The notes under the pieces: generated by a model
What the model was told of the DNA's origin: nothing
Seen by the model: the letters and a program-made list of their open reading frames with translations, nothing else
Databases searched by the model: none
NCBI RefSeq assembly: GCF_040958095.1
Contig: NC_091160.1
Coordinates: 39,884,730-39,948,729 of the forward strand
Reading direction: 5' to 3'
Source: Procambarus clarkii
Taxonomy: Eukaryota > Arthropoda > Malacostraca > Decapoda > Cambaridae
Length of the DNA: 64,000 bases
Translations under genes and position numbers: made by a program
Shown: one piece after another, positions 12,006-60,955 of the stretch
How positions within the stretch are numbered: the first letter of the stretch is position 1
How the letters are laid out: the number at the start of each line of letters is the position of its first letter

Positions 12006-15000
12006 CTGGAAAGCAATGGGATCATTAAGTGAATGATGGATATATATATCAATAATTAAATTGCGTGTGTGTGCAAACGAATAAAGAAAAAGAATGTTGG
12101 AAAAGTTTGTCAAATGCTCAGTTACCTTCACCGTCATTGTGGGGGTTGAAGTGACTAGCTTCAGGGAGGCCGGGGTACATGGCCGAACAACATACTGAAC
12201 ACGATGAACGATTCGCACACTTTTGACCATCTTTGGGTGGAATTGGGTCCTGGAAATTGGTACAACCACATTTCTCTGGGGCATACATGTTGGCTAGAAG
12301 ATCTGGAAAAATAATGGATCATTATAGAAGATTGAGGGATAGATATTATTTTACACACACACATACTAGATGGGGTCTACGACGATGACCAGGTTGACTT
12401 GGTGGCCAGGTCTCTCCCTAACCCCTATCCCATGCCCCCTTTTTCACTTACATAAATTTTTACCATTCTTGTAACTATTTTCAATATGCACTGTCGTAAT
12501 AATTATAAACATCTTCACACCATCTCCATTCCAACTGTACACCCTCCCTCTTTTTCACACATCCATACATTAAAACATTGGTTGTAACCATGATGTATAT
12601 GTACTTCCGCCTACAGTTTAGACCTATTGTCTTGTGTATGACCCTCTGTCCTGCGTGACAGAGGATACCAGCATTATCCTCACTTCAGTAAGACTTAATA
12701 GAAATCCTCAGATAAGGAAAAATTGTAATTAATTTTGTCAATAAAGATGTTAATAATAATAAATCCCTCCCTCAATCTATGCACACCCTGCCCATCACCC
12801 CCTTACATTCCCTACCTATCTATTCCTCATACACACCCTCACTATCTCCCTCTATACCACCCTCGCAGTCTTCCCCCACATACACCCTCCCCATCACTCC
12901 TAGTACACCATCCTGGTCTCCAACACATACATCCACCGACTTTGTGAAGAGGGTGCATAGGGCCCATTATATATAGACAAACATCACACACACTAAACTT
13001 TAAAAGCAACTTGGTTGACATCTTACCTGAATTCCTCTTTTTCTCCTGTGCATTTATGGATCCATCGTACTGGCTCTCCAGCCAAGCGTCAGCTGGCTCC
13101 CCGTGCTTCAAGAGGTCCATTCCTGGCTTACAGAAATTGTTAGAGATATAAAACATGTACAATGTATAATGACTGCGTTCATAACACTGAAAACATAACA
13201 ATTATAATACAATTATCAATTATATAATACAAACGTGGAAACTTTATGTATTATCTTCACTTACCTGCAATTTCCATTTCTGGAGGCACCCTCAAGAGGC
13301 CGAGCAGCCTGAGGGAACCAAACATAACCAAACAAAGACCACCAGACCAGGCCACTATGGCCAGCGCACCCACTATGTTCCAGGCGAGGACCTCCGCGCT
13401 GCCCCCGTACACAATGCCACCATCCTGGAAGAGGGCCACAGCAACCAGCCCCCACAACCCACCTCCCATGTGCACAGCCACAGCATCAAGTGGGTCGTCA
13501 ACTGTGGAAGAAATATTAATTAACTTTACACTCACAACCTCAACAGTCCCAATATGCACGTACACTTCCCAATAATATAAAATTTTATAAATATTATTAT
13601 TTAAGTATATGCCATCTACAGAACATAACGTTAAAGTTAAAATATTTCAAACTCAAGTTAGATAAAGCCGGCTACTTGTTGCCTTCTTGAGACAAAGTTA
13701 AGAAAACTGAGCGGCGAGAGAATCAGTAACGTACCCTTCAACTTGGGCAGAAGGGTGTGGATGGCGAGGAACACTGATCCACCCACTGTACCAATGACAC
13801 TGGCACTCCACGGCCGCACAACGTTGCACCCGGCACTGATTGACACCTGTCATGGAAATATGTCCTTAAGCATTGGATAAACAAACTCACATACATATTG
13901 CAAGTAACGGTATTTTGATAAGAAATTAGTTATGTTATCATAATACTAAATTAAGTTTAAATTAAATGTCCATCCATGAAAATTAACAGCTAGCAGAGTC
14001 CATCACACTAGCACCAGATGGACTCCCGGCCACACAGTGCAGAGTGGTACTTACCATGCCAGCGAGAGAACCATTAAGGGCCATTAGGAAGGACCAGGTG
14101 GACTCCCTCCTAGAATGATTCATCAAGAGCACAGCGATGCCTCCTGAAGACGCCGAGATCACAGTGTTAAAGACAGCCTTGGCAATGGCTACAGCATCAC
14201 CCTCGTGGCTGATGGACGCTTGGAACCCTCCGTTGAAGGCCAGGAACCCGAAGAGCAGGATTAAGAATCCCTGAGCTGCGAGCTGGAAGTTCAAACACAA
14301 CTTTACACCTTCATCTTGACGTGTAATATTTGTATTAAACATGATATTCCACTAAAATTATATCTTGCTTCATGACTTCATATAATAACACATATTACTA
14401 ATGCTCTATGAACATACCGGCACAGAGTGTCCACGTATCTCCTTGCCCTTGGGTCCGAAGCGACCGATTCTGGGCCCAAGAATTACAGCCCCAACAAGAG
14501 CTGCCACGCCCCCTGTGAGGTGGACGACGCCGGAGCCACCGAAGTCCTGGTAGTGTTGAGTCTTGAGCCAGCCAATATCTGACCAGGTCCAGTGTGACAC
14601 CACAGGGTACACCACACCTGTACAAACACAAATATTATCATAACCAGGTACACCACAGCTGTACCAACACAAACATTGTCATATCCAGGTACACCATAGG
14701 GGCTGTCTTACATATGCCAGCTGTGCAAATGCTAGACAGTCTCCTCTCTTATGAATTTTGAGACACAGAAACAAAGAGATAAAGAGAATCGGATTCCTTC
14801 CACCCACCAGACAGCATGACGGAGCAGATGAGGTAGGCGTTGAAGGCACACCGCTCAGCCATCGACCCGGAGACTATGGTGGCAGCTGTGGCAGCGAACG
14901 CGAACTGGAACAACCAAAAGACCAGGCGCTCGTCCGCCAGCCCGTATGTCCAATCGCCCATGCCAGAGAAGCTGTTTCCTCTTCCAAATGCCAGCTGGAA

Positions 15001-18000
15001 CCCTACCAGCAAGTACGCTATGGCACTCGTCTGGAGAGAGCAATAAGGTAGATGTTTAGTACAGGAATAAGCACTAAAAGAAGTGATGGAGACAGTACTG
15101 GAAAGAAGTAATTAAGGCGGGCCAGGGAGGGATTAAAGAGGACGATATGGTAGTAGAATTTTTATAATTTCAAAATTATGCATAACACCTGCAGACTTGG
15201 GTTTGGAAAACCAAATATATATTTCTCAAGAAATGGGCGAGAACTTCACATATTAAAAACGAAGGCGGGTGTTTGATTACTTACCAATAATGTGTAAGTT
15301 CTTGAAAAGAATGTTGGCAGTGTTCTTGGACCTTACGTATCCTGCCTCAAGCAACGTGAACCCCGTCTGCAACACTGTTGGAAAAAATACAAATTGTATA
15401 TCAAATTCATTTAAAACATGTTAAAATTATTTCCAGAATAGAGAATACCTGTATTTTATTACTGAATAGATACTTGATTTCTATATATAACAGAATGTAT
15501 GTCGGTCTCCTAGTCCTTTAGCCGATAGTTTGATGCAAGTGATCTATCTCCTTTCTTAAAAATTGGTACCACATTAGCAACCTTCCATGACTCTGGGACT
15601 CTGCCTGACTCTATTGATTTATTAAATATGGTAGACAGTGCCTCCCAAAGCTCCTCTTTGCATTCTGGGGTGTGAGTTTTCAGTAACATATACAATGTAT
15701 AATGACTGCGTTCATAACACTGAAAAAATAACAATTATAATACAATTATCAATTATATAATACAAACGTGGAAACTTTATTTATTATCTTCACTTACCTG
15801 CAATTTCCATTTCTGGAGGCACCCTCAAGACGCCGAGCAGCCTGAGGGAACCAAACATAACCAAACAAAGACCACCAGACCAGGCCACTATGGCCAGCGC
15901 CCCCACTATGTTCCAGGCGAGGACCTCCGCGCTGCCCCCGTACACAATGCCACCATCCTGGAAGAGGGCCACAGCAACCAGCCCCCACAACCCACCTCCC
16001 ATGTGTACAGCCACAGCATCAAGTGGGTCGTCAACTGTGGAAGAAATATTAATTAACTTTACACTCAACCTCAACAGTCCCAATATGCATGTACACTTCC
16101 CAATGATGTAACAAGAGAATATTATTTAAGTATTTGCTTTACATCTTCAGAACATAACAGTGAAGTTAAAAGATTGCAAATTAAAGTTAGATAAAGCCGG
16201 CTACTTGTTGCCTTCTTGAGACAAAGAAGTTAAGAAAACTGAGCGGTGAGAGAAGCAGTGACGTACCCTTCAACTTGGGCAGAAGGGTGTGGATGGCGAG
16301 GAACACTGATCCACCCACTGTACCAATGACACAGGCACTCCACGGCTGGACAACGTTGCACCCGGCACTGATTGACACCTGTCATGGAAATATGTCCTTA
16401 AGCATTGGATAAACAAACTCACATACATATTGCAAGTAACGGTATTTTGATACGAAATTAGTTATGTTATCATAATACTAAATTAAGTTTAAATTAAATG
16501 TCCATCCATGAAAATTAACAGCTAGCAGAGTCCATCACACTAGCACCAGATGGACTCCCGGCCACACAGTGCAGAGTGGTACTTACCATGCCAGCGAGAG
16601 AACCATTAAGGGCCATTAGGAAGGACCAGAGGGACTCCCTCCTAGAATGATTCATCAAGAGCACAGCGATGCCTCCTGAAGACGCCGAGATCACAGTGTT
16701 AAAGACAGCCTTGGCAATGGCTACAGCATCAACCTCGTGGCTGATGGACGCTTGGAACCCTCCGTTGAAGGCCAGGAACCCGAAGAGCAGGATTAAGAAT
16801 CCCTGAGCTGCCAGCTGGAAGTTCAAACACAACTTTACACCTTCATCTTGACGTATAATATTTGTATTAAACATGATATTCCACTAAAATTATATCTTGC
16901 TTCATGACCTCATATAATAACACATATTACTAATGCTCTATGAACATACCGGCACAGAGTGTCCACGTATCTCCTTGCCCTTGGGTCCGAAGCGACCGAT
17001 TCTGGGCCCAAGAATTACAGCCCCGACAAGAGCTGCCACGCCCCCTGTGAGGTGGACGACGCCGGAGCCACCGAAGTCCTGGTAGTGTTGAGTCTTGAGC
17101 CAGCCAATATCTGACCAGGTCCAGTGTGACACCACAGGGTACACCACACCTGTACAAACACAAATATTATCATAACCAGGTACACCACAGCTGTACCAAC
17201 ACAAACATTGTCATATCCAGGTACACCATAGGGGCTGTCTTACATATGCCAGCTGTGCAAATACTAGACAGTCTCCTCTCTTATGAATTTTGAGACACAG
17301 AAACAAAGAGATAAAGAGAATCGGATTCCTTCCACCCACCAGACAGCATGACGGAGTAGATGAGGTAGGCGTTGAAGGCACACCGCTCAGCCATCGACCC
17401 GGAGACTATGGTGGCAGCTGTGGCAGCGAACGCGAACTGGAACAACCAAAAGACCAGGCGCTCGTCCGCCAGCCCGTATGTCCAATCGCCCCATACCAGA
17501 GAAGCTGTTTCCTCTTCCAAATGCCAGCTGGAACCCTACCAGCAAGTACGCTATGGCACTCGTCTGGAGAGAGCAATAAGGTAGATATTTAGTACAGGAA
17601 TAAGCACTAAAAGAAGTGATGGAGACAGTACTGGAAAGAAGTAATTAAGGCGGGCCAGGGAGGGATTAAAGAGGACGATATGGTAGAAGAATTTTTATAA
17701 TTTCAAAATTATGCATAACACCTGCAGACTTGGGTTTGGGAAACCAAATATATATTTCTCAAGAAATGGGCGAGAACTTCACATATTAAAAACGAAGGCG
17801 GGTGTTTGATTACTTACCAATAATGTGCAAGTTCTTGAAAAGAACGTTGGCAGTGTTCTTGGACCTTACGTATCCTGCCTCAAGCAACGTGAACCCCGTC
17901 TGCAACACTGTTGGAAAAAAAACAAATTGTATATCAAATTCATTTAAAGCATGTTAAAATTATTTCCAGAATAGATAATACCTGTATTTTATTACTTAAT

Positions 18001-21000
18001 AAATACTTGATTTCTATATATAACAGAATGTATGTCGGTCTCCTAGTCCTTTAGCCGATTGTTTGATGCAAGTGATCTATCTCCTTTCTTAAAAATTGGT
18101 ACCACATTAGCAACCTTCCATGACTCTGGGACTCTGCCTGACTCTAATGATTTATTAAATATGGTTGACAGTGCCTCCCAAAGCTCCTCTTTGCATTCTG
18201 GGGTGTGAGTTTTCAGTAACATATACAATGTATAATGACTGCGTTCATAACACTGAAAACATAACAATTATAATACAATTATCAATTATATAATACAAAC
18301 GTGGAAACTTTATGTATTATCTTCACTTACCTGCAATTTCCATTTCTGGAGGCACCCTCAAGACGCCGAGCAGCCTGAGGGAACCAAACATAACCAAACA
18401 AAGACCACCAGACCAGGCCACTATGGCCAGCGCCCCCACTATGTTCCAGGCGAGGACCTCCGCGCTGCCCCCGTACACAATGCCACCATCCTGGAAGAGG
18501 GCCACAGCAACCAGCCCCCACAACCCACCTCCCATGTGTACAGCCACAGCATCAAGTGGGTCGTCAACTGTGGAAGAAATATTAATTAACTTTACACTCA
18601 CAACCTCAACAGTCCCAATATGCATGTACACTTCCCAATGATGTAACAAGAGAATATTATTTAAGTATTTGCTTTACATCTTCAGAACATAACAGTGAAG
18701 TTAAAAAATTGCAAATTGAAGTTAGATAAAGCCGGCTACTTGTTGCCTTCTTGAGACAAAGAAGTTAAGAAAACTGAGCGGTGAGAGAAGCAGTGACGTA
18801 CCCTTCAACTTGGGCAGAAGGGTGTGGATGGCGAGGAACACTGATCCACCCACTGTACCAATGACACAGGCACTCCATGGCTGGACAACGTTGCACCCGG
18901 CACTGATTGACACCTGTCATGGAAATATGTCCTTAAGCATTGGATAAACAAACTCACAGACATTGCAAGTAACGGTATTTTGATACGAAATTAGTTATGT
19001 TATCATAATACTAAATTAAGTTTAAATTAAATGTCCATCCATGAAAATTAACAGCTAGCAGAGTCCATCACACTAGCACCAGATGGACTCCCAGCCACAC
19101 AGTGCAGAGTGGTACTTACCATGCCAGCGAGAGAACCATTAAGGGCCATTAGGAAGGACCAGAGAGACTCCCTCCTAGAATGATTCATCAAGAGCACAGC
19201 GATGCCTCCTGAAGACGCCGAGATCACAGTGTTAAAGACAGCCTTGGCAATGGCTACAGCATCAACCTCGTGGCTGATGGACGCTTGGAACCCTCCGTTG
19301 AAGGCCAGGAACCCGAAGAGCAGGATTAAGAATCCCTGAGCTGCCAGCTGGAAGTTCAAACACAACTTTACACCTTCATCTTGACGTATAATATTTGTAT
19401 TAAACATGATATTCCACTAAAATTATATCTTGCTTCATGACCTCATATAATAACACATATTACTAATGCTCTATGAACATACCGGCACAGAGTGTCCACG
19501 TATCTCCTTGCCCTTGGGTCCGAAGCGACCGATTCTGGGCCCAAGAATTACAGCCCCAACAAGAGCTGCCACGCCCCCTGTGAGGTGGACGACGCCGGAG
19601 CCACCGAAGTCCTGGTAGTGTTGAGTCTTGAGCCAGCCAATATCTGACCAGGTCCAGTGTGACACCACAGGGTACACCACACCTGTACAAACACAAATAT
19701 TATCATAACCAGGTACACCACAGCTGTACCAACACAAACATTGTCATATCCAGGTACACCATAGGGGCTGTCTTACATATGCCAGCTGTGCAAATGTTAG
19801 ACAGTCTCCTCTCTTATGAATTTTGAGACACAGAAACAAAGAGATAAAGAGAATCGGATTCCTTCCACCCACCAGACAGCATGACGGAGTAGATGAGGTA
19901 GGCGTTGAAGGCACACCGCTCAGCCATCGACCCGGAGACTATGGTGGCAGCTGTGGCAGCGAACGCGAACTGGAACAACCAAAAGACCAGGCGCTCGTCC
20001 GCCAGCCCGTATGTCCAATCGCCCATGCCAGAGAAGCTGTTTCCTCTTCCAAATGCCAGCTGGAACCCTACCAGCAAGTACGCTATGGCACTCGTCTGGA
20101 GAGAGCAATAAGGTAGATGTTTAGTACAGGAATAAGCACTAAAAGAAGTGATGGAGACAGTACTGGAAAGAAGTAATTAAGGCGGGCCAGGGAGGGATTA
20201 AAGAGGACGATATGGTAGTAGAATTTTTATAATTTCAAAATTTTGCATAACACCTGCAGACTTGGGTTTGGGAAACCAAATATATATTTCTCAAGAAATG
20301 GGCGAGAACTTCACATATTAAAAACGAAGGCGGGTGTTTGATTACTTACCAATAATGTGTAAGTTCTTGAAAAGAATGTTGGCAGTGTTCTTGGACCTTA
20401 CGTATCCTGCCTCAAGCAACGTGAACCCCGTCTGCAACACTGTTGGAAAAAAATACAAATTGTATATCAAATTCATTTAAAGCATGTTAACAATATTTCC
20501 AGAATAGAGAATACCTGTATTTTATTACTGAATAAATACTTGATTTCTATATATAACAGAATGTATGTCGGTCTCCTAGTCCTTTAGCCGATAGTTTGAT
20601 GCAAGTGATCTATCTCCTTTCTTAAAAATTGGTACCACATTAGCAACCTTCCATGACTCTGGGACTCTGCCTGACTCTATTGATTTATTAAATATGGTTG
20701 ACAGTGCCTCCCAAAGCTCCTCTTTGCATTCTGGGGTGTGAGTTTTCAGTAACATATACAATGTATAATGACTGCGTTCATAACACTGAAAACATAACAA
20801 TTATAATACAATTATCAATTATATAATACAAACGTGGAAACTTTATTTATTATCTTCACTTACCTGCAATTTCCATTTCTGGAGGTACCCTCAAGACGCC
20901 GAGCAGCCTGAGGGAACCAAACCTAACCAAACAAAGACCACCAGACCAGGCCACTATGGCCAGCGCCCCCACTATGTTCCAGGCGAGGACCTCCGCGCTG

Positions 21001-24000
21001 CCCCCGTACACAATGCCACCATCCTGGAAGAGGGCCACAGCAACCAGCCCCCACAACCCACCTCCCATGTGTACAGCCACAGCATCAAGTGGGTCGTCAA
21101 CTGTGGAAGAAATATTAATTAACTTTACACTCACAACCTCAACAGTCCCAATATGCATGTACACTTCCCAATAATGTAACAAGAGAATATTATTTAAGTA
21201 TTTGCTTTACATCTTCAGAACATAACAGTGAAGTTAAAAGATTGCAAATTGAAGTTAGATAAAGCCGGCTACTTGTTGCCTTCTTGAGACAAAGAAGTTA
21301 AGAAAACTGAGCGGTGAGAGAAGCAGTGACGTACCCTTCAACTTGGGCAGAAGGGTGTGGATGGCGAGGAACACTGATCCACCCACTGTACCAATGACAC
21401 AGGCACTCCACGGCTGGACAACGTTGCACCCGACACTGATTGACACCTGTCATGGAAATATGTCCTTAAGCATTGGATAAACAAATTCACATACATATTG
21501 CAAGTAACGGTATTTTGATAAGAAATTAGTTATGTTATCATAATACTAAATTAAGTTTAAATTAAATGTCCATCCATGAAAATTAACAGCTAGCAGAGTC
21601 CATCACACTAGCACCAGATGGACTCCCGGCCACACAGTGCAGAGTGGTACTTACCATGCCAGCGAGAGAACCATTAAGGGCCATTAGGAAGGACCAGAGG
21701 GACTCCCTCCTAGAATGATTCATCAAGAGCACAGCGATGCCTCCTGAAGAGGCCGATATCGCAGTGTTGAAGACAACCTTGGCAATGGCTACAGCATCAA
21801 CCTCGTGGCTGATGGACGCTTGGAACCCTCCGTTGAAGGCTAGGAACCCGAAGAGCAGGATTAAGAATCCCTGAGCTGCCAGCTGGAAGTTCAAACACAA
21901 CTTTACACCTTCATCTTGACGTATAATATTTGTATTAAACATGATATTCCACTAAAATTATATCTTGCTTCATGACTTCATATAATAACACATATTACTA
22001 ATGCTCTATGAACATACCGGCACAGTGTCCACGTGTCTCCTTGCCCTTGGGTCCGAAGCGACCGATTCTGGGTCCAAGAATTACAGCCCCAACAAGAGCT
22101 GCCACGCCCCCTGTGAGGTAGACGACGCCGGAGCCACCGAAGTCCTGGTAGTGTTGAGTCTTGTGCCAGCCAATATCTGACCAGGTCCAGTGTGACACCA
22201 CAGGGTACACCACACCTGTACAAACACAAATATTATCATAACCAGGTACACCACAGCTGTACCAACACAAACATTGTCATATCCAGGTACACCATAGGGG
22301 CTGTCTTACATATGCCAGCTGTGCAAATGCTAGACAGTCTCCTCTCTTATGAATTTTGAGACACAGAAACAAAGAGATAAAGAGAATCGGATTCCTTCCA
22401 CCCACCAGACAGCATGACGGAGTAGATGAGGTAGGCGTTGAAGGCGCACCGCTCAGCCATCGACCCGGAGACTATGGTGGCAGCTGTGGCAGCGAACGCG
22501 AACTGGAACAACCAAAAGACCAGGCGCTCGTCCGCCAGCCCGTATGTCCAATCGCCCATGCCAGAGAAGCTGTTTCCTCTTCCAAATGCCAGCTGGAACC
22601 CTACCAGCAAGTACGCTATGGCACTTATGACTGGAGAGAGCAATAAGGTAGATGTTTAGTACAGGAATAAGCACTAAAAGAAGTGATGGAGACAGTACTG
22701 GAAAGAAGTAATTAAGGCGGGCCAGGGAGGGATTAAAGAGGACTATATGGTAGTAGAATTTTTATAATTTCAAAATTATGCATAACACCTGCAGACTTGA
22801 GTTTGGAAAACCAAATATATATTTCTCAAGAAATGGGCGAGAACTTCACATATTAAAAACGAAGGCGGGTGTTTGATTACTTACCAATAATGTGTAAGTT
22901 CTTGAAAAGAATGTTGGCAGTGTTCTTGGACCTTACGTATCCTGCCTCAAGCAACGTGAACCCCGTCTGCAACACTGTTGGAAAAAAATACAAATTGTAT
23001 ATCAAATTCATTTAAAGCATGTTAACAATATTTCCAGAATAGAGAATACCTGTATTTTATTACTGAATAAATACTTGATTTCTATATATAACAGAATGTA
23101 TGTCGGTCTCCTAGTCCTTTAGCCGATAGTTTGATGCAAGTGATCTATCTCCTTTCTTAAAAATTGGTACCACATTGGCAACCTTCCATGACTCTGGGAC
23201 TCTGCCTGACTCTATTGATTTATTAAATATGGTAGACAGTGCCTCCCAAAGCTCCTCTTTGCATTCTTTAAGCACCCTGGCAAACACTTCATCCGGCCCT
23301 GGGGATTTGTTTGGTTTGAGTTTTACTGTTTGTTTAATAACATCCTCCCTGGTAACTGCTAAACTAGTCAACCTGTCTTTTTAACATTTTTAACCGGTTG
23401 TACGAATTCCTGTTCTAAACTGACTTCCCTATTCTTAATCCTTTTGTACCACGCTCTTTCTACCTATAAGGTTCTTCAGATACTTTGTTATCCATTTTGG
23501 GTCATTGGTATTCGATCTATTCAATTTGTATGGAATACTACGTTCCTGTGCTTTGCATAGAATATTTTTAAATCAGTTATATTTTAAATCCACATCGAAA
23601 TCCCTTTTTACGTCACCTATTGCTGGATTTACATCTCGCTCCAAGACTGCCAAACCCCCATGCCCAAGACTCCAATCTATTTGACCAAAAAATTCTTAGG
23701 CACCAATCGCTGGGTTCATGTCTCGCTCTAAGACCGGCCAACCCTCATGCCCAAGACTTTCCAATCTATTTGACCCAAAACATTTCTTAGGCTATTAAAA
23801 TCAGCTTTTCGAAAATCTGGCACTTTAACAGAATTTTCTCCTACAGATCTATTTCATTCTATGCTAAATCTGATTTCTCTGTGATCACTGTTCCCTAACT
23901 CACTCCCTATTTCGATGTCATTAATTTGTGTTTCCCCTGCTAGTTAACACTTAATCTAAAATATTATTTTCCCGCGTTGGTTCCAATGTGTTGCGTAAGA

Positions 24001-25180
24001 AAGCAATCGTCAATTAATTCTATAAATCTTCTGCTTCATTATTTCCTGTTCTGTTAAACCAATTTATTCCACTAAAATTAAAGTCACCCATGGCACAAAT
24101 ACTGTTAGACCCAGATGCTCTAGATATTTCATCCCATAGGTGCTTTGCTTCCATCCCGTCTAAGTTTGGTGGCCTGTATATAGCTCCTATTATAAGATTT
24201 GCTTTTTCGTTAAATTCTATCCATATAGTTTCTGTGTGTGGTTCAGTTTTGATTCCCTCTTTGAGACTACATTTCAAATTGTCCCTAACATATATGGCTA
24301 CTCCCCCTCCTCGTCTAATATATCTATCTGTGTGAATAAATCCATTTGATATTCAGCTAATAGTTCTCTATTTTCTACATTCATCCACGTATTTAGTGGA
24401 TGGTTAGTATCCACTAAATAGTAAAGTTTTAGTAAAGACAGTATTTATTGAAGATGGTTACAGGGATGAGCATGGTTATGTTGTGAGCAGTTAAGGTATT
24501 TACAGCGAGGAAGATAGGGTGAAATAAAGACGGTAAGTGATGATGCCCGTCAATAAAGACGGTGAGATGCCTTAAATAAAGACGGTAAGATAACGAGTAG
24601 TAAAGAAGCTTACAAAAATGAAGATAGTATGTAGGAAATATGTAGTGATGCAGACGGTGAAAGTGAATTCAGTATTACATTTTCTGCGATAGAGATCGAA
24701 GGGAAAGGAGGGGGGGGGGGGCAGAGGGCAGGAAAGGTGAGAAAGGGTGGATGTTGGGGGAGAGGGGTGAGATAGGACAGGGCAGAAGAGAGGGGAGAAT
24801 ACGGAAAGAGATAACTGAAAGGGGGAGAGAGAGAGGAGAAATTGAGAGAGCGGGGATGGGAAAGATAGACCCGGTCGTAGCCTAGTATTCTCCCTCCCAA
24901 AGTAATGTATACCGTGATCTGTATATCTGTTTATATACTTTTAAAAGGGGTGCTTTCAAGAGGACATTGTTAATTAGAAACGTGCCGCTAATGATAGGAA
25001 ATAACATTAACGTTGATACTCACTGAATATTAGGATTCCGGTCAGAATGAGGAAGAACATGTCCTTGTCAGTCAGCGAGGGAGCCAGCAGGTCACGTTCC
25101 TCCCGGACGACTGAAGACAGCGTCGCTGACGGCGGGTCTTCGGCAGACATTAACCAGGTTATATCTTGGCCGGAATCCAT
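11596..25180 (-). CDS. AMT-A: ammonium transporter gene with four tandem core blocks
   Basis: Amt/MEP-family gene for a membrane ammonium channel/transporter. Single exons: 1 (25024-25180), 8 (13027-13122), 9 (12126-12302), 10 (11596-12005). Exons 2-7 occur in four tandem copies between them. Signatures are [16 protein letters not shown] in TM1, [13 protein letters not shown] with the first pore His, and [15 protein letters not shown] with the second. All splice sites are GT/AG and phases match AMT-B. No single copy is open throughout. Exon 1, copy 4 exons 2-3, exons 4-7 of copy 1, 2 or 3, then exons 8-10 give an open frame of 1932 nt including the stop (643 residues). Whether the cell makes this, or the locus is decaying, is unknown. 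Confidence 0.7.
12126..12302 (-). CDS. AMT-A exon 9: C-terminal cytoplasmic region
   Basis: The acceptor tttttccag precedes 12302. The first codons ([11 protein letters not shown]) align with [11 protein letters not shown] of AMT-B exon 9. The exon is unusually Cys-rich (CGC, CSVCCS), unlike B. The donor is GTAACT after GAA G. If that donor is not used, the frame stops within three codons. Confidence 0.75.
12306..13020 (-). other. AMT-A intron 8
   Basis: Intron between exons 8 and 9. It holds CT-rich low-complexity sequence (12770-12930) and a repeat-like stretch around 12560-12750, but no gene. Confidence 0.6.
13027..13122 (-). CDS. AMT-A exon 8
   Basis: Encodes [17 protein letters not shown] and onward, the conserved segment at the start of the cytoplasmic tail. 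Relative to AMT-B it lacks 9 nt (AYPADAW is reduced to ADAW). Splice phases are 1 and 1. It is the only copy in the gene; the tandem unit breaks about 30-40 bp upstream of its acceptor. Confidence 0.9.
13155..15686 (-). CDS. AMT-A core block, copy 1 (exons 2-7)
   Basis: Exons: 2 (15285-15374), 3 (14808-15030), 4 (14418-14617), 5 (14055-14282), 6 (13735-13846), 7 (13265-13501). Every splice site is canonical and exons 4-7 are open and in phase. Exon 3 begins ACGAG where copy 4 has TCATAAG. The 2-nt loss throws it out of frame with exon 2, so exons 2-3 cannot be used together. This copy carries B-like alleles (SHEGDAVA in exon 5, VRPWS in exon 6, LLGLLRV in exon 7) that copies 2-4 lack. It sits next to the single exon 8. 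Confidence 0.85.
15510..15686 (-). mobile_element. CR1-like RT fragment plus SINE tail at unit junction 1/2
   Basis: The minus strand encodes [18 protein letters not shown], an early reverse transcriptase motif. It is fused at 15663-15683 to the tail of a tRNA-headed SINE (ttctggggtgtgagttttca), then to AMT intron 7. It lies in the predicted intron between exon 7 of copy 2 and exon 2 of copy 1. Confidence 0.85.
15687..18219 (-). CDS. AMT-A core block, copy 2 (exons 2-7)
   Basis: Exons: 2 (17818-17907), 3 (17340-17563), 4 (16950-17149), 5 (16587-16814), 6 (16267-16378), 7 (15798-16034). It shares the 2-nt loss at the exon 3 acceptor with copies 1 and 3 and adds a 1-nt insertion (gcccc for gccc) near 17490, so exon 3 is doubly damaged. 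Exons 4-7 are intact. Exon 7 is identical over 237 nt to AMT-C exon 7. Confidence 0.85.
18043..18219 (-). mobile_element. CR1-like RT fragment plus SINE tail at unit junction 2/3
   Basis: Same composite junction as at 15510-15686, with the SINE tail at 18194-18216. It differs by a few substitutions, including ggttgac for ggtagac, shared with the next junction. Confidence 0.85.
18220..20752 (-). CDS. AMT-A core block, copy 3 (exons 2-7)
   Basis: Exons: 2 (20350-20439), 3 (19873-20095), 4 (19483-19682), 5 (19120-19347), 6 (18802-18913), 7 (18331-18567). The only lesion seen is the shared 2-nt loss at the exon 3 acceptor. Exons 4-7 are intact and in the same phase as AMT-B, so they could follow copy 4 exon 3. 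Confidence 0.85.
20576..20752 (-). mobile_element. CR1-like RT fragment plus SINE tail at unit junction 3/4
   Basis: Third copy of the composite junction, with the SINE tail at 20728-20750. At the right end of copy 4 (23268) the RT instead continues into its native sequence, which shows the original breakpoint. Confidence 0.85.
20753..23268 (-). CDS. AMT-A core block, copy 4 (exons 2-7), next to exon 1
   Basis: Exons: 2 (22885-22974), 3 (22406-22630), 4 (22018-22215), 5 (21655-21882), 6 (21335-21446), 7 (20864-21100). Exon 3 is intact and joins exon 2 in frame (V-I-S-A-I-A-Y). Exon 4 is 198 nt instead of 200: near 22022 the sequence reads cacagtgtcc where the others read cacagagtgtcc, so it ends in phase 1 and exon 5 would be misread. 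Exon 7 has Met to Arg in LVRFGSLR. Confidence 0.85.
23100..24420 (-). mobile_element. CR1-like non-LTR element, degenerate (endonuclease and RT start)
   Basis: A minus-strand remnant in AMT-A intron 1. At 24020-24277 an 85-codon frame has [10 protein letters not shown] and [13 protein letters not shown], typical of the apurinic-like endonuclease of non-LTR elements. At 23111-23371 the RT start is seen ([18 protein letters not shown], then [15 protein letters not shown]). Between them the frame is broken several times. Its internal part supplied the right edge of the AMT-A tandem unit. RT motifs with the catalytic Asp pair are absent. Confidence 0.85.
25024..25180 (-). CDS. AMT-A exon 1 (start exon)
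   Basis: ATG at 25180-25178 starts [19 protein letters not shown], matching [16 protein letters not shown] of AMT-B. The exon ends [12 protein letters not shown] plus one base at the donor GTGAGT, phase 1 as in B. It holds the extracellular N-terminus and the start of the first membrane helix. It is the only start exon for the four core blocks. Confidence 0.9.
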
Positions 25181-35775: not shown

Positions 35776-38700
35776 ATGGATGCCGGACACAATATTAGTT
35801 TACTAATGTCTGGCGAGAACCCGACGCCAATGTCCCGGGAACTGGACATCCTGCAGAAGGACCTGGACACCCTCTTCCTCATTGTGTTCGGCATCCTCAT
35901 ATTCAGTAAGTACCAAAATCTGTGTTTTCTCTCTTTTTTCAAGTATTTAAACATATATATGGCACCTATTTCACATTTTGTATATTAATAAAATAGTTGT
36001 ATAATAGTACAATAATCTGTGTGTTAGATTTTGTTTTATTATGCTTAGAATAATGTATTTGGAATGCAATTTGTACTTTTGACTAACATTTGTTTATAAT
36101 TTCAGTCTTGCAGACCGGGTTCGCTTTCCTTGAGGCAGGTTCCGTAAGGTCCAAGAACACCACCAACATCCTTCTCAAGAACATGCTCGATGTCTGTAAG
36201 TTATCAAACACCTTCTTTATTTGTTATCGTATCTGGCTTATGTCTGGTGAACCAGCACATGATTTTCTTATTCCTATCTCATAGCTAAAATACGCTCTCA
36301 ATGTATATAACTTTGCCGACTCTTGTATTCCTGTAATTTCCTGGTTTTGTTTTTCCTTCTGCTGGTGTTATATACTAAATTGTTCTCTGTATTTAACTGA
36401 CTTCCTCCCACCAAGCCTCACGTAGTAATAATGATATGAATTCCACAATCGTCCCCACCCTGTACTAACCATCTGCCCTGTTACTCTCCCCAGTCATTGG
36501 TGGCATAGCGTACTGGCTGGTGGGGTTCCCGCTGGCGTTTGGAGGCGGGAACAGCTTCTCTGGTACAGAGTACTGGGCGTCGTACGGGCTGTCGGACGAG
36601 CACCTGGCCTTTTGGTTCTTCCAGTTCGTCATCGCCACCACAGCCTCCACCATCATCTCGGGGTCCATGGCTGAGCGGTGTGCCTTCAATGCTTATCTCA
36701 TCTACACGACCGTGCTGTCAGGTGGGTGTGAAGCCTCTTTCTCTCTGTAAAGTATATTTCAAATTTAGCAGGATACTTTACACTATTTTGTGGTCAATGA
36801 ATAAATAACTTTACTCACTGGCTTTATTTATATAATTTAGATAATATTTGAGAGGAACCTTAACAGGGCAATCTTGAGAGAAAGACAATTTTTTAGACAA
36901 TAATAGCCTAACACTGATCATTATAATTAAACTTTGTGTTTCTCAATAAATTTAAAAGGCAATGCAAACAATAATACATTCCCCACGGAATTAATAGATA
37001 CATTATAAAATACAGCAGTGTTGGTACAGCTGTAGTGTGCCGTGTTTTAATCATGTTTGTGTGTTGTAACAGCTCAGTTATGATAATATTTGTGTTTGTA
37101 CAGCTGTGGTGTACCCGGTAGTGTCACATTGGACCTGGTCAGACGTTGGCTGGCTCAAGACTCAACACTACCAGGACTTCGGTGGCTCCGGCGTCGTCCA
37201 CCTCACAGGGGGCGTGGCAGCTCTTGTTGGGGCTGTAATTCTTGGGCCCAGAATCGGTCGCTTCGGACCCAAGGGCAAGGAGATACGTGGACACTCTGTG
37301 CCGGTATGTTCATAGAACAGTGGTAATATATTATAATCTGAAGTCATGAAGCAAGATATAAATATTTGTGGATTATCATGTTTAATACAAATATTACACG
37401 TCAAGGTGGAGGTGTAAAGTTGTGTTTGAATTTCCAGCTGGCAGCTCTGGGAGGCTTCATCCTGCTCTTCGGGTTCCTGGCCTTCAACGGAGGGTCCCAA
37501 GCGTCCATCAGCCACGAGGGTGATGCTGTAGCCATTGCCAAGGCTGTCTTTAACACTGTGATCTCGGCGTCTTCAGGAGGCATCGCTGTGCTCTTGGTGT
37601 ACCGTTCTGTGCTGTGTGGGAGGGAGTCCACCTGGTCCTTCCTAATGGCTCTTAATGGTTCTCTAGCTGGCATGGTATGTACCGCTCTGCGCTGTGTGGC
37701 CGGGAGTCCATTAGTGCTAGTATGATGGACTCTGCTCGCTGTAAATTTTCATTGACAGACGTTTGATTTAAACTTAACTTAGTATTATGATAACATAACA
37801 AATTTCTTATCAAAATGGTGTTACTTGCAATATGTCTGAATTTGTTTATCCAATGCTTAAGGACATGTTTCCATGACAGGTGTCAATCAGTGCCGGGTGC
37901 AACGTTATGCGGCCGTGGAGTGCCTGTGTCATTGGCACAGTGGGTGGATCAGTGTTCCTCGCCATCCACACCCTTCTGCCCAAGTTGAAGGGTACGTTAC
38001 TGATTCTCTCGCCGCTCAGTTTTCTTAACTTTGTCTCATGAAGGCAACAAGTAGCCGGCTTTATCTAACTTGAGTTTGAAATATTTTAACTTTAACGTTA
38101 TGTTCTGTAGATGGCATATACTTAAATAATAATATTTATACAATTTTATATTATTGGGAAGTGTACGTGCATATTGGGACTGTTGAGGTTGTGAGTGTAA
38201 AGTTAATTAATATTTCTTCCACAGTTGACGACCCACTTGATGCTGTGGCTGTGCACATGGGAGGTGGGTTGTGGGGGCTGGTTGCTGTGGCCCTCTTCCA
38301 GGATGGTGGCATTGTGTACGGGGGCAGCGCGGAGGTCCTCGCCTGGAACATAGTGGGGGCGCTGGCCATAGTGGCCTGGTCTGGTGGTCTCTGTTTAGTT
38401 ATGTTTGGTTCCCTCAGGCTGCTCGGCCTCTTGAGGGTGCCTCCAGAAATGGAAATTGCAGGCAAGTGAAGATAATACATAAAGTTTTCACTTTTGTATT
38501 ATATAATTGATAATTGTTATATTTTTAGTGTTATGAACGCATTCATTATACATTGTATATGTTCTATATCTCTAACAATATCTGTACGCCAGGAATGGAC
38601 ATCTTGAAGCACGGGGAGCCAGCCTACCCAGCTGACGCTTGGCTGGAGAGCCAGTACGATGGATCCGTAAACACTCAGGAGAACAAGAGGAATTCAAGTA

Positions 38701-39142
38701 AGTTGTAAACTAAGTTGCTTTTAAAGTTTTGTGTGTGATGTTTATTTACTTGATATTAATGAAATGCATCATAGAAGTTCATACAGTTTTGTCATCAACA
38801 TTTTCCACTATTCATCTAATCCATTATTTTCCAGATCTTCCACCCAACATGTCTGCCCCGGAAGAATTTGGCTTGACTAATTCCCAGGACCCAGCTCCAG
38901 TCCCTGGACACCTTGTATACTGGAGTCGTGCAGGACCAGTCCCATCCCACCTCTCACCCGTCGTGTCCCTCAACAACCACGAAGCTAACCACTTGAACTC
39001 CAACAATAGTGTCTCTGAAGCTGGCTTCACAATCCGACTGGGAGACCATGATCTGCGAGTCCTCGTTGAACCCAGAGATCAACGTGGTCAAGATCCTCAG
39101 TGTTACACCAATGAGGCTTTTGACGAAACCACAAAGCTTTAA
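35776..39142 (+). CDS. AMT-B: complete ammonium transporter, 9 exons, 548 residues
   Basis: Amt/MEP-family ammonium transporter of the plasma membrane. Exons: 35776-35905, 36106-36195, 36494-36721, 37104-37303, 37438-37674, 37880-37991, 38225-38461, 38593-38697, 38835-39142. The coding length is 1647 nt and all phases agree. Signatures: [19 protein letters not shown] (TM1), [13 protein letters not shown] with pore His182, [11 protein letters not shown] with Ser236, [14 protein letters not shown] with pore His343, and [13 protein letters not shown] opening the cytoplasmic tail. An in-frame TTG lies upstream, but ATG 35776 matches the AMT-A start. The intron 7 donor is GC (GCAAGT). Where most relatives have a gate Phe (FQFxFA), this protein reads FQFVIA. 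Introns are short (112-382 bp). Known roles of the family suggest ammonia excretion in gill. Confidence 0.95.
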
Positions 39143-39959: not shown

Positions 39960-40740
39960 GAATTATAAAGTGGAGACATTTCCCCAACGGAGATATCACC
40001 CGCCAGAGACATTACCTGCCAGACACATCATCCATCAGACACATCATCCACCAGAATCATCACCCACCAGACACATGATCCACCAGTATCATCACCCACC
40101 AGACACATCACCCACCAGACACATCATCCACCAGAATCATCACCCATCATCCACCAGAATCATCACCCACCAGACACATCATCCACCAGAGTCATCATCC
40201 ACCAGAATCATCACCCATCATCCACATTATCCACCAGAATCTTCACCCACCAGACACATCATCCACCAGAGTCATCATTCACCAGAATCATCACCCACCA
40301 GACACATCATCCACCAGTATCATCACCCACCAGACACATCATCCACCAGAGTCATCATTCACCAGAATCATCACCCACCAAACACATCATCCACCAGTAT
40401 CATCACCCATCCGACACATGATCCACCAGTATCATCACCCTCCAGAATCATTACTCACCAGACACATCATCCACCAGAATCATCACCCACCAGACACATC
40501 ATCCACCAGAATCATCACCCACCAGACACATCATCCACCAGTATCATCACCTACCAGACACATCACCCACCAGACACAGCATCCACCAGAATCATCACCC
40601 ATCAGGCACATCATCCACCAGAATCATCACCCACCAGACACATGATCCACCAGTATCATCACCCACCAGACACATCACCCACCAAAATCATCACTCGTCA
40701 GACACATCATCCACCAGACTCATCATCCACCAGAGACAAT
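39960..40740. repeat. minisatellite of 15-16-bp subunits (catccaccagaatca type)
   Basis: Alternating subunits such as cacccaccagacacat and catccaccagaatcat run for about 780 bp. Many units keep one frame open (298 codons, His/Pro-rich), but that frame has no conserved domain and starts in unrelated sequence. It is treated as a satellite. Confidence 0.85.
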
Positions 40741-47988: not shown

Positions 47989-60224
<12,236 letters not shown>

Positions 60225-60554
60225 CTGGAAGAATAATAATAGAAATATAACAATAAAATAAACACGTCCTGACCTCCCTTATTCTCTAGCTTTCCCACCG
60301 TCGTCTGCCCCTGACCTTCCCTGACCCTGCCCCCCCCCTGACCCTTCCTCCCTTCCCTTGCTCCCTCACTCTTCCTCCCCTGCTCCCTAGGGATCTATCA
60401 ATGCCACTTGTAATATAAACTCTCCTTGGTGGGTTAGGACCAGTATATATATGCCCTTAAGTGCTACTTTCCTGAGCGCCGTGGATATCACTCAGTAAGT
60501 GCAACACTCTGTTATATTCCACGGAATTATACATTTGTACAACTTAGCGACGGG

Positions 60555-60955
60555 TTTGTCAAGCTGGGTGACTGGCTTTTACAGCTGGGTGACTGGCTTT
60601 TACAGCTGGGTGACTGGCTTTTACAGCTGGGTGACTGGCTTTTACAGCTGGGTGACTGGCTTTTACAGCTGGGTGACTGGCTTTTACAGCTGGGTGACTG
60701 GCTTTTACAGCTGGGTGACCGGCTTTTACAGCTGGGTGACTGGCTTTTACAGCTGGATGACTGGCTTTTACAGCTGGGTGACCGGTTTTTACAGCTGGGT
60801 GACTGGCTTTTACAGCTGGGTGACTGGCTTTTACAGCTGGGTGACTGGCTTTTACAGCTGGGTGGCCGGCTTTTACAGCTGGGTGGCCGGCTTTTACAGC
60901 TGGGTGACTGGCTTTTACAGCTGGGTGACCGGCTTTTACAGCTGGGCGACTGTAA
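60555..60955. repeat. 21-bp minisatellite, about 19 copies
   Basis: The unit contains ctgggtgactggcttttaca, with variants gtgacc, gtggcc and gatgac. At seven codons per unit, frames such as YSWVTGF stay open for 160 codons. It lies upstream of AMT-C exon 2, within intron 1. Confidence 0.93.

Follow-up and report, generated by a model that had tools for sequence, protein, structure and literature searches.

An ammonium transporter gene of Procambarus clarkii with four internal tandem exon blocks is probably a pseudogene of a LINE-marked subfamily

Intragenic partial tandem duplication is a class of exon-block duplication by unequal exchange, and the duplicated (unprocessed) pseudogenes of large gene families form another recognised class. 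Here, we describe a gene of the Amt/Mep/Rh family (PF00909) from Procambarus clarkii, gene C, that has features of both. Gene C resembles cases of partial tandem duplication in its repeated internal exons, common join, and phase-compatible block, but it differs in having four copies, a breakpoint inside a non-LTR retrotransposon (LINE), and a broken locus. Like duplicated pseudogenes, it keeps its introns, has many near-identical relatives, and carries frameshifts; its internal tandem blocks set it apart from that class. Within the Amt/Mep/Rh family, its closest point of comparison is an open neighboring gene (gene B), with which its exons align one by one, whereas gene C has exons 2-7 in four copies, none of which is open. 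Dscam-type arrays (PMC3364881, PMC9741552) likewise repeat coding exons in tandem within a single gene. In such arrays the alternatives are usable singly, whereas the repeated unit of gene C is a block of six exons and each block is broken. Among the open-licence papers that our searches listed, titles and the opening lines of abstracts contained nothing on this locus, on an Amt gene of such build, or on an expansion of Amt genes in crayfish.

The window, by which we mean the whole stretch of 64,000 bases that was analysed, spans positions 39884730-39948729 of contig C11 in the P. clarkii genome (4,027,284,227 bases; 4.03 Gb). It contains three Amt genes, of which A and C lie on the minus strand and B on the plus strand. 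Gene C runs from a start exon (25180-25024) through four 2.5-kb tandem blocks of exons 2-7 (23267-13152) to its tail exons (13122-12118). The features, in positions of the window, are as follows.

25024-25180, minus strand: gene C exon 1, the start exon, 157 bases long with a gtgagt donor; homologue of gene B exon 1
23114-24352, minus strand: LINE fragment in intron 1 of gene C, the end of which opens every block
20733-23267, minus strand: gene C block 1, LINE end and exons 2-7; exon 4 (22215-22018) is 2 bases short
18200-20732, minus strand: gene C block 2, exons 2-7; exon 3 (20095-19873) is 2 bases short at its start
15667-18199, minus strand: gene C block 3, exons 2-7; exon 3 (17563-17340) is short of those 2 bases and also carries 1 additional base
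13152-15666, minus strand: gene C block 4, exons 2-7; exon 3 (15030-14808) is likewise short of those 2 bases; exons 5-7 are partly gene-B-like
13027-13122, minus strand: gene C exon 8, single copy
12118-12302, minus strand: gene C exon 9 with the stop codon, single copy; start placed by homology to gene B exon 9, stop by translation
35776-38992, plus strand: gene B, a single-block Amt gene with exons 1-8 open, exon 8 ending at 38697 and exon 9 starting at 38835; end approximate
48099-60224, minus strand: gene A, a single-block Amt gene with exons 2-8 open (60224-49138) and exon 9 starting at 48257; low end approximate

Exon 1 of gene A was not found within the window. The window also holds many minisatellite arrays with periods of 16-80 (at 1-1404, 39990-40738, 54927-56103, and 59407-60952), as well as a 456-base GA run.

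The spliced protein of gene B (exons 1-8, 446 residues) matched PF00909 with 364.6 bits over residues 34-423, covering nearly the whole profile, and it also matched solved ammonium transporters. Exon by exon, gene C matched the same profile as well as genes A and B, the full-length Pfam score being that of gene B only. In-frame deletions relative to gene B have removed 3 bases from exon 3 of gene C and 9 bases each from exons 5 and 8. At the end of exon 7, genes B (38462, plus strand) and A (49947, minus strand) have a GC donor (gcaagt), and gene C has GT.

Alignment of the window with itself by BLAST gave three off-diagonal matches for gene C, with shifts of 2533, 5066, and 7599 bases, lengths of 7596, 5061, and 2525 bases, and identities of 97.1-98.2%. 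These matches reject chance as the source of the repeat. They also agree with the original prediction, which had proposed one start exon, one set of tail exons, and four 2.53-kb copies of exons 2-7 at 13155..23268. The block boundaries that we obtained (23267, 20732, 18199, 15666, and 13152) place the limits within a few bases of that range, and each block is in phase 1 at the entry of exon 2 and at the exit of exon 7, as had been predicted. In every block, exons 2-7 are flanked by AG acceptors and GT donors, and the splice dinucleotides are intact in all 24 block exons, in exon 1, and in the tail. The minus strand, the frame-breaking indels, the intron 1 LINE within the blocks, and the Amt genes A and B were absent from the prediction.

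All three internal junctions of gene C are alike: intron 7 sequence is followed by a filler of about 18 bases and then by the LINE. The few bases further out vary among the copies. An endonuclease-like stretch of the LINE matched PF03372 and PF14529, both below the curated cut-offs, and a second stretch, which we take to be reverse transcriptase, had no match in Pfam. The internal copies of gene C are thus arranged head to tail with a common junction, present three times. When the full junction was searched against the genome, there were three full-length matches among the 40 candidates scored (of 1656), all at the gene C locus itself. Because the join is identical at the three junctions, a single event probably created it, and later exchange would have multiplied the copies.

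Tandem blocks of 2.5 kb are a hard case for assembly, and one or two real blocks might for that reason have been written out four times. We regard this as unlikely. The blocks differ from one another by about 0.9-2.3% in substitutions, and each has its own private alignment columns, namely 24 in block 1, 8 in block 2, 15 in block 3, and 63 in block 4 (a number that counts gap columns, 18 of which are the filler absent at the end of that block). The junction is also a distinct sequence, and sister loci carry other internal arrays, described below.

The reading frame of gene C is broken in all four blocks. An open block has 1092 coding bases, and blocks 1-4 have 1090, 1090, 1091, and 1090, respectively. 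In block 1, 2 bases are missing near the end of exon 4. Blocks 2-4 share a different deletion, the same 2 bases at the start of exon 3, and block 3 has gained 1 further base in that exon. The first stop is reached at 251 codons in joins that start with block 1, at 140 in those that start with block 2 or 4, and at 134 in those that start with block 3. One to four neighboring blocks can be joined contiguously in 10 ways; with all exons kept, no such join, those of the four single blocks included, reached exon 8 with an open frame. The frame across the whole core, which is open in gene B over exons 1-8 and in gene A over exons 2-8, is therefore not open in gene C. Any transcript with all exons retained in order runs into a stop within its first block, in exon 3 or exon 5, which argues that gene C is a pseudogene. 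The frame-breaking indels could in principle be assembly errors; the fact that one deletion is common to three blocks argues against this source without excluding it.

These frames bear directly on how the array might be used. The original prediction held that the copies could in principle be joined in any number with the frame preserved, and this is true of an ideal block with phase 1 at both ends but fails for the blocks that are actually present. A transporter design of open-ended, joinable units therefore finds no place in gene C, given the frameshifts in all four blocks. One extreme version, in which all blocks are translated as a single chain of about 1500 residues with several transporter cores, would fit the block phase, but the chain would end after 251 of about 1538 codons and the join would fall inside the first membrane helix. 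The Amt fold has an odd number of helices (11), with its two ends on opposite sides of the membrane. With the join in the first helix, concatenated cores would thus also be mis-oriented. Unless the deletions are assembly errors, the present sequence refutes such a chain, and we give it almost no probability. The same phase-1 block would suit a Dscam-like arrangement in which exactly one whole block is spliced into each transcript. However, with every exon retained, all four single-block transcripts lose the open frame, so no whole block is usable on its own. The present sequence refutes a mutually exclusive exon array, and we consider that reading extremely improbable.

We then scored transcripts that take one copy of each of exons 2-7 in genomic order, drawn from any of the blocks. 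Fifteen of these 84 choices were open, with the first stop after 509 codons in exon 9, and all 15 combine exons 2-3 of block 1 with exon 4 of blocks 2-4. Together with the intact splice dinucleotides, this would allow splicing across blocks to yield one full-length transporter from exons 2-3 of block 1 and exons 4-7 of later blocks, the array being kept because no block is whole. Such splicing would have to skip at least six exons regularly, from exon 3 of block 1 to exon 4 of a later block, and the in-frame losses relative to gene B also speak against it. We consider this reading very unlikely, and the state of the sister loci, given below, weighs against it further. We attach a similarly small probability to the idea of a split gene that it implies, in which block 1 supplies the only usable exon 3 and blocks 2-4 the only usable copies of exon 4, the mutations compensating each other at the RNA level. 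Of the two conserved pore histidines, which we assign to the exon 4 and exon 7 stretches, both are found in blocks 2-4, and the first reads Tyr in block 1. Skipping exon 3 leaves blocks 2-4 open to the stop in exon 9 at a cost of about 75 residues of the membrane core, and we did not accept it as a functional solution.

At least 40 sites on contigs C11, C25, and C41, the gene B exon itself (35776-35906) among them, match the gene-B-type first exon with 96-100% identity (40 of 56 candidates scored); these copies appear to represent a very large recent amplification of Amt genes. Of the four gene-B-type loci that we read (L005, L006, L037, and L038), only L006 is broken, by a frameshift in exon 7; the other three have exons 1-8 open. 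Directly after exon 5, a short extra partial match to exon 5 is present in L005, L006, and L037; we treated these partial matches, found in three of four gene-B-type loci, as a short repeat and set them aside. For the gene C start exon, the genome contains 13 sites, 12 on C11 and 1 on C25 (all 13 candidates scored).

Gene C belongs to a LINE-marked Amt subfamily. LINE sequence lies upstream of exon 2 in related loci, and the LINE end is also present at L024 and L025. The 13 start-exon loci examined were gene C, L017 (the fetched stretch of which stops just short of exon 1), L018-L025, L030, L039, and L040. Eleven of them, counting gene C, are disrupted in exons 1-8 by a frameshift or stop. The sole defect of L020 is an exon 5 donor that reads TT in place of GT, and only L040 (C25:24268800-24274500), which is on a different contig, is clean over exons 1-8. 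Because the start-exon loci are mostly broken, decay appears to be the rule in this subfamily, which is a further point against a functional transporter assembled across blocks. Among 10 LINE-bearing loci without gene C exon 1 in the fetched stretch (L026-L029 and L031-L036), 3 are open over exons 2-8 (L027, L028, and L032). In total, exons 2-8 are clean in 4 of the 22 sister loci examined (these three and L040), so the subfamily has not decayed entirely; these counts cover the fetched loci, and further LINE-bearing places exist, for example on C11 at 4.04 and 9.34 Mb.

Three of the sister loci contain an internal tandem array of another kind. L017, L018, and L019 carry 7, 2, and 2 tandem copies, respectively, of a unit of about 771 bases composed of the LINE end and exon 2, located as follows.

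L017, 3624-8340: array of LINE end and exon 2
L018, 3599-4459: array of LINE end and exon 2
L019, 5309-6161: array of LINE end and exon 2

Among the 20 loci L017-L036, these are the only ones with a tandemly repeated exon. One end of the unit lies 34 bases beyond exon 2, and the next copy restarts at a position in the LINE that is different from that in gene C. Because the breakpoints differ at both ends, a common origin with the gene C blocks seems unlikely, and the arrays in L017-L019 look like the product of a separate event. Another locus, L031 (C11:5209500-5217500), has an inverted pair, with the LINE and exons 2 and 3 on the plus strand and then the same on the minus strand; the locus contains 500 N, and the pair is possibly an assembly join.

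We compared nonsynonymous and synonymous differences over exons 2-7. Mean pN/pS was 0.17 among five gene-B-type sequences (L006 included), 0.26 between genes A and B, 0.33 among the four gene C blocks, and 0.55 among 18 LINE-bearing loci other than gene C. The last set was drawn from L017-L036, leaving out L029 and L031, which have lost exons, and L039 and L040 were outside it. Divergence in exons exceeded that in introns in the three pairs that involve block 1 (1.65 versus 1.04%, 1.84 versus 1.39%, and 2.48 versus 2.11%) and was lower than that in introns in the other three pairs (0.55 versus 1.18%, 1.19 versus 2.40%, and 1.38 versus 2.61%). Gene conversion could have caused this mixed pattern. 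Of 31 scorable substitutions specific to block 4, 24 match gene B, mostly in exons 5-7 and intron 6, and the simplest reading is that block 4 has been partly overwritten by gene conversion from the gene-B type. Such conversion would blunt the pN/pS test of relaxed constraint.

Taken together, we consider it highly probable that gene C is a pseudogene with an intragenic tandem duplication, belonging to a LINE-marked subfamily in which internal duplications recur and most of the members examined are broken. Its structure would then follow from recurrent internal duplication in a decaying subfamily. We infer that a tandem duplication of exons 2-7 fused intron 7 with the LINE of intron 1, and that unequal exchange then raised the number of blocks to four. 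Afterwards the blocks would have drifted apart, with gene conversion from the gene-B type replacing part of their sequence, and each now carries at least one frameshift. Several observations fit a pseudogene less well: pN/pS among the four blocks is 0.33 rather than 1, the comparison of exons with introns is mixed, all splice dinucleotides are intact, blocks 2-4 can be read to the exon 9 stop with exon 3 skipped, and a minority of the sister loci are clean. Nevertheless, disabling mutations in the coding frame, as found in duplicated pseudogenes, are present in every block, and gene C is most likely non-functional.

These results suggest that decay can produce, as a side effect, even a conspicuous internal repeat within a gene. 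Internal tandem blocks arose in this subfamily by at least two routes, both of which have one breakpoint in the LINE region that precedes exon 2. Splicing across blocks, if true, would be a new way of keeping a broken tandem gene alive. The wider setting may matter more than the array itself, with at least 40 near-identical copies of one Amt first exon standing alongside a sister type that is mostly broken.
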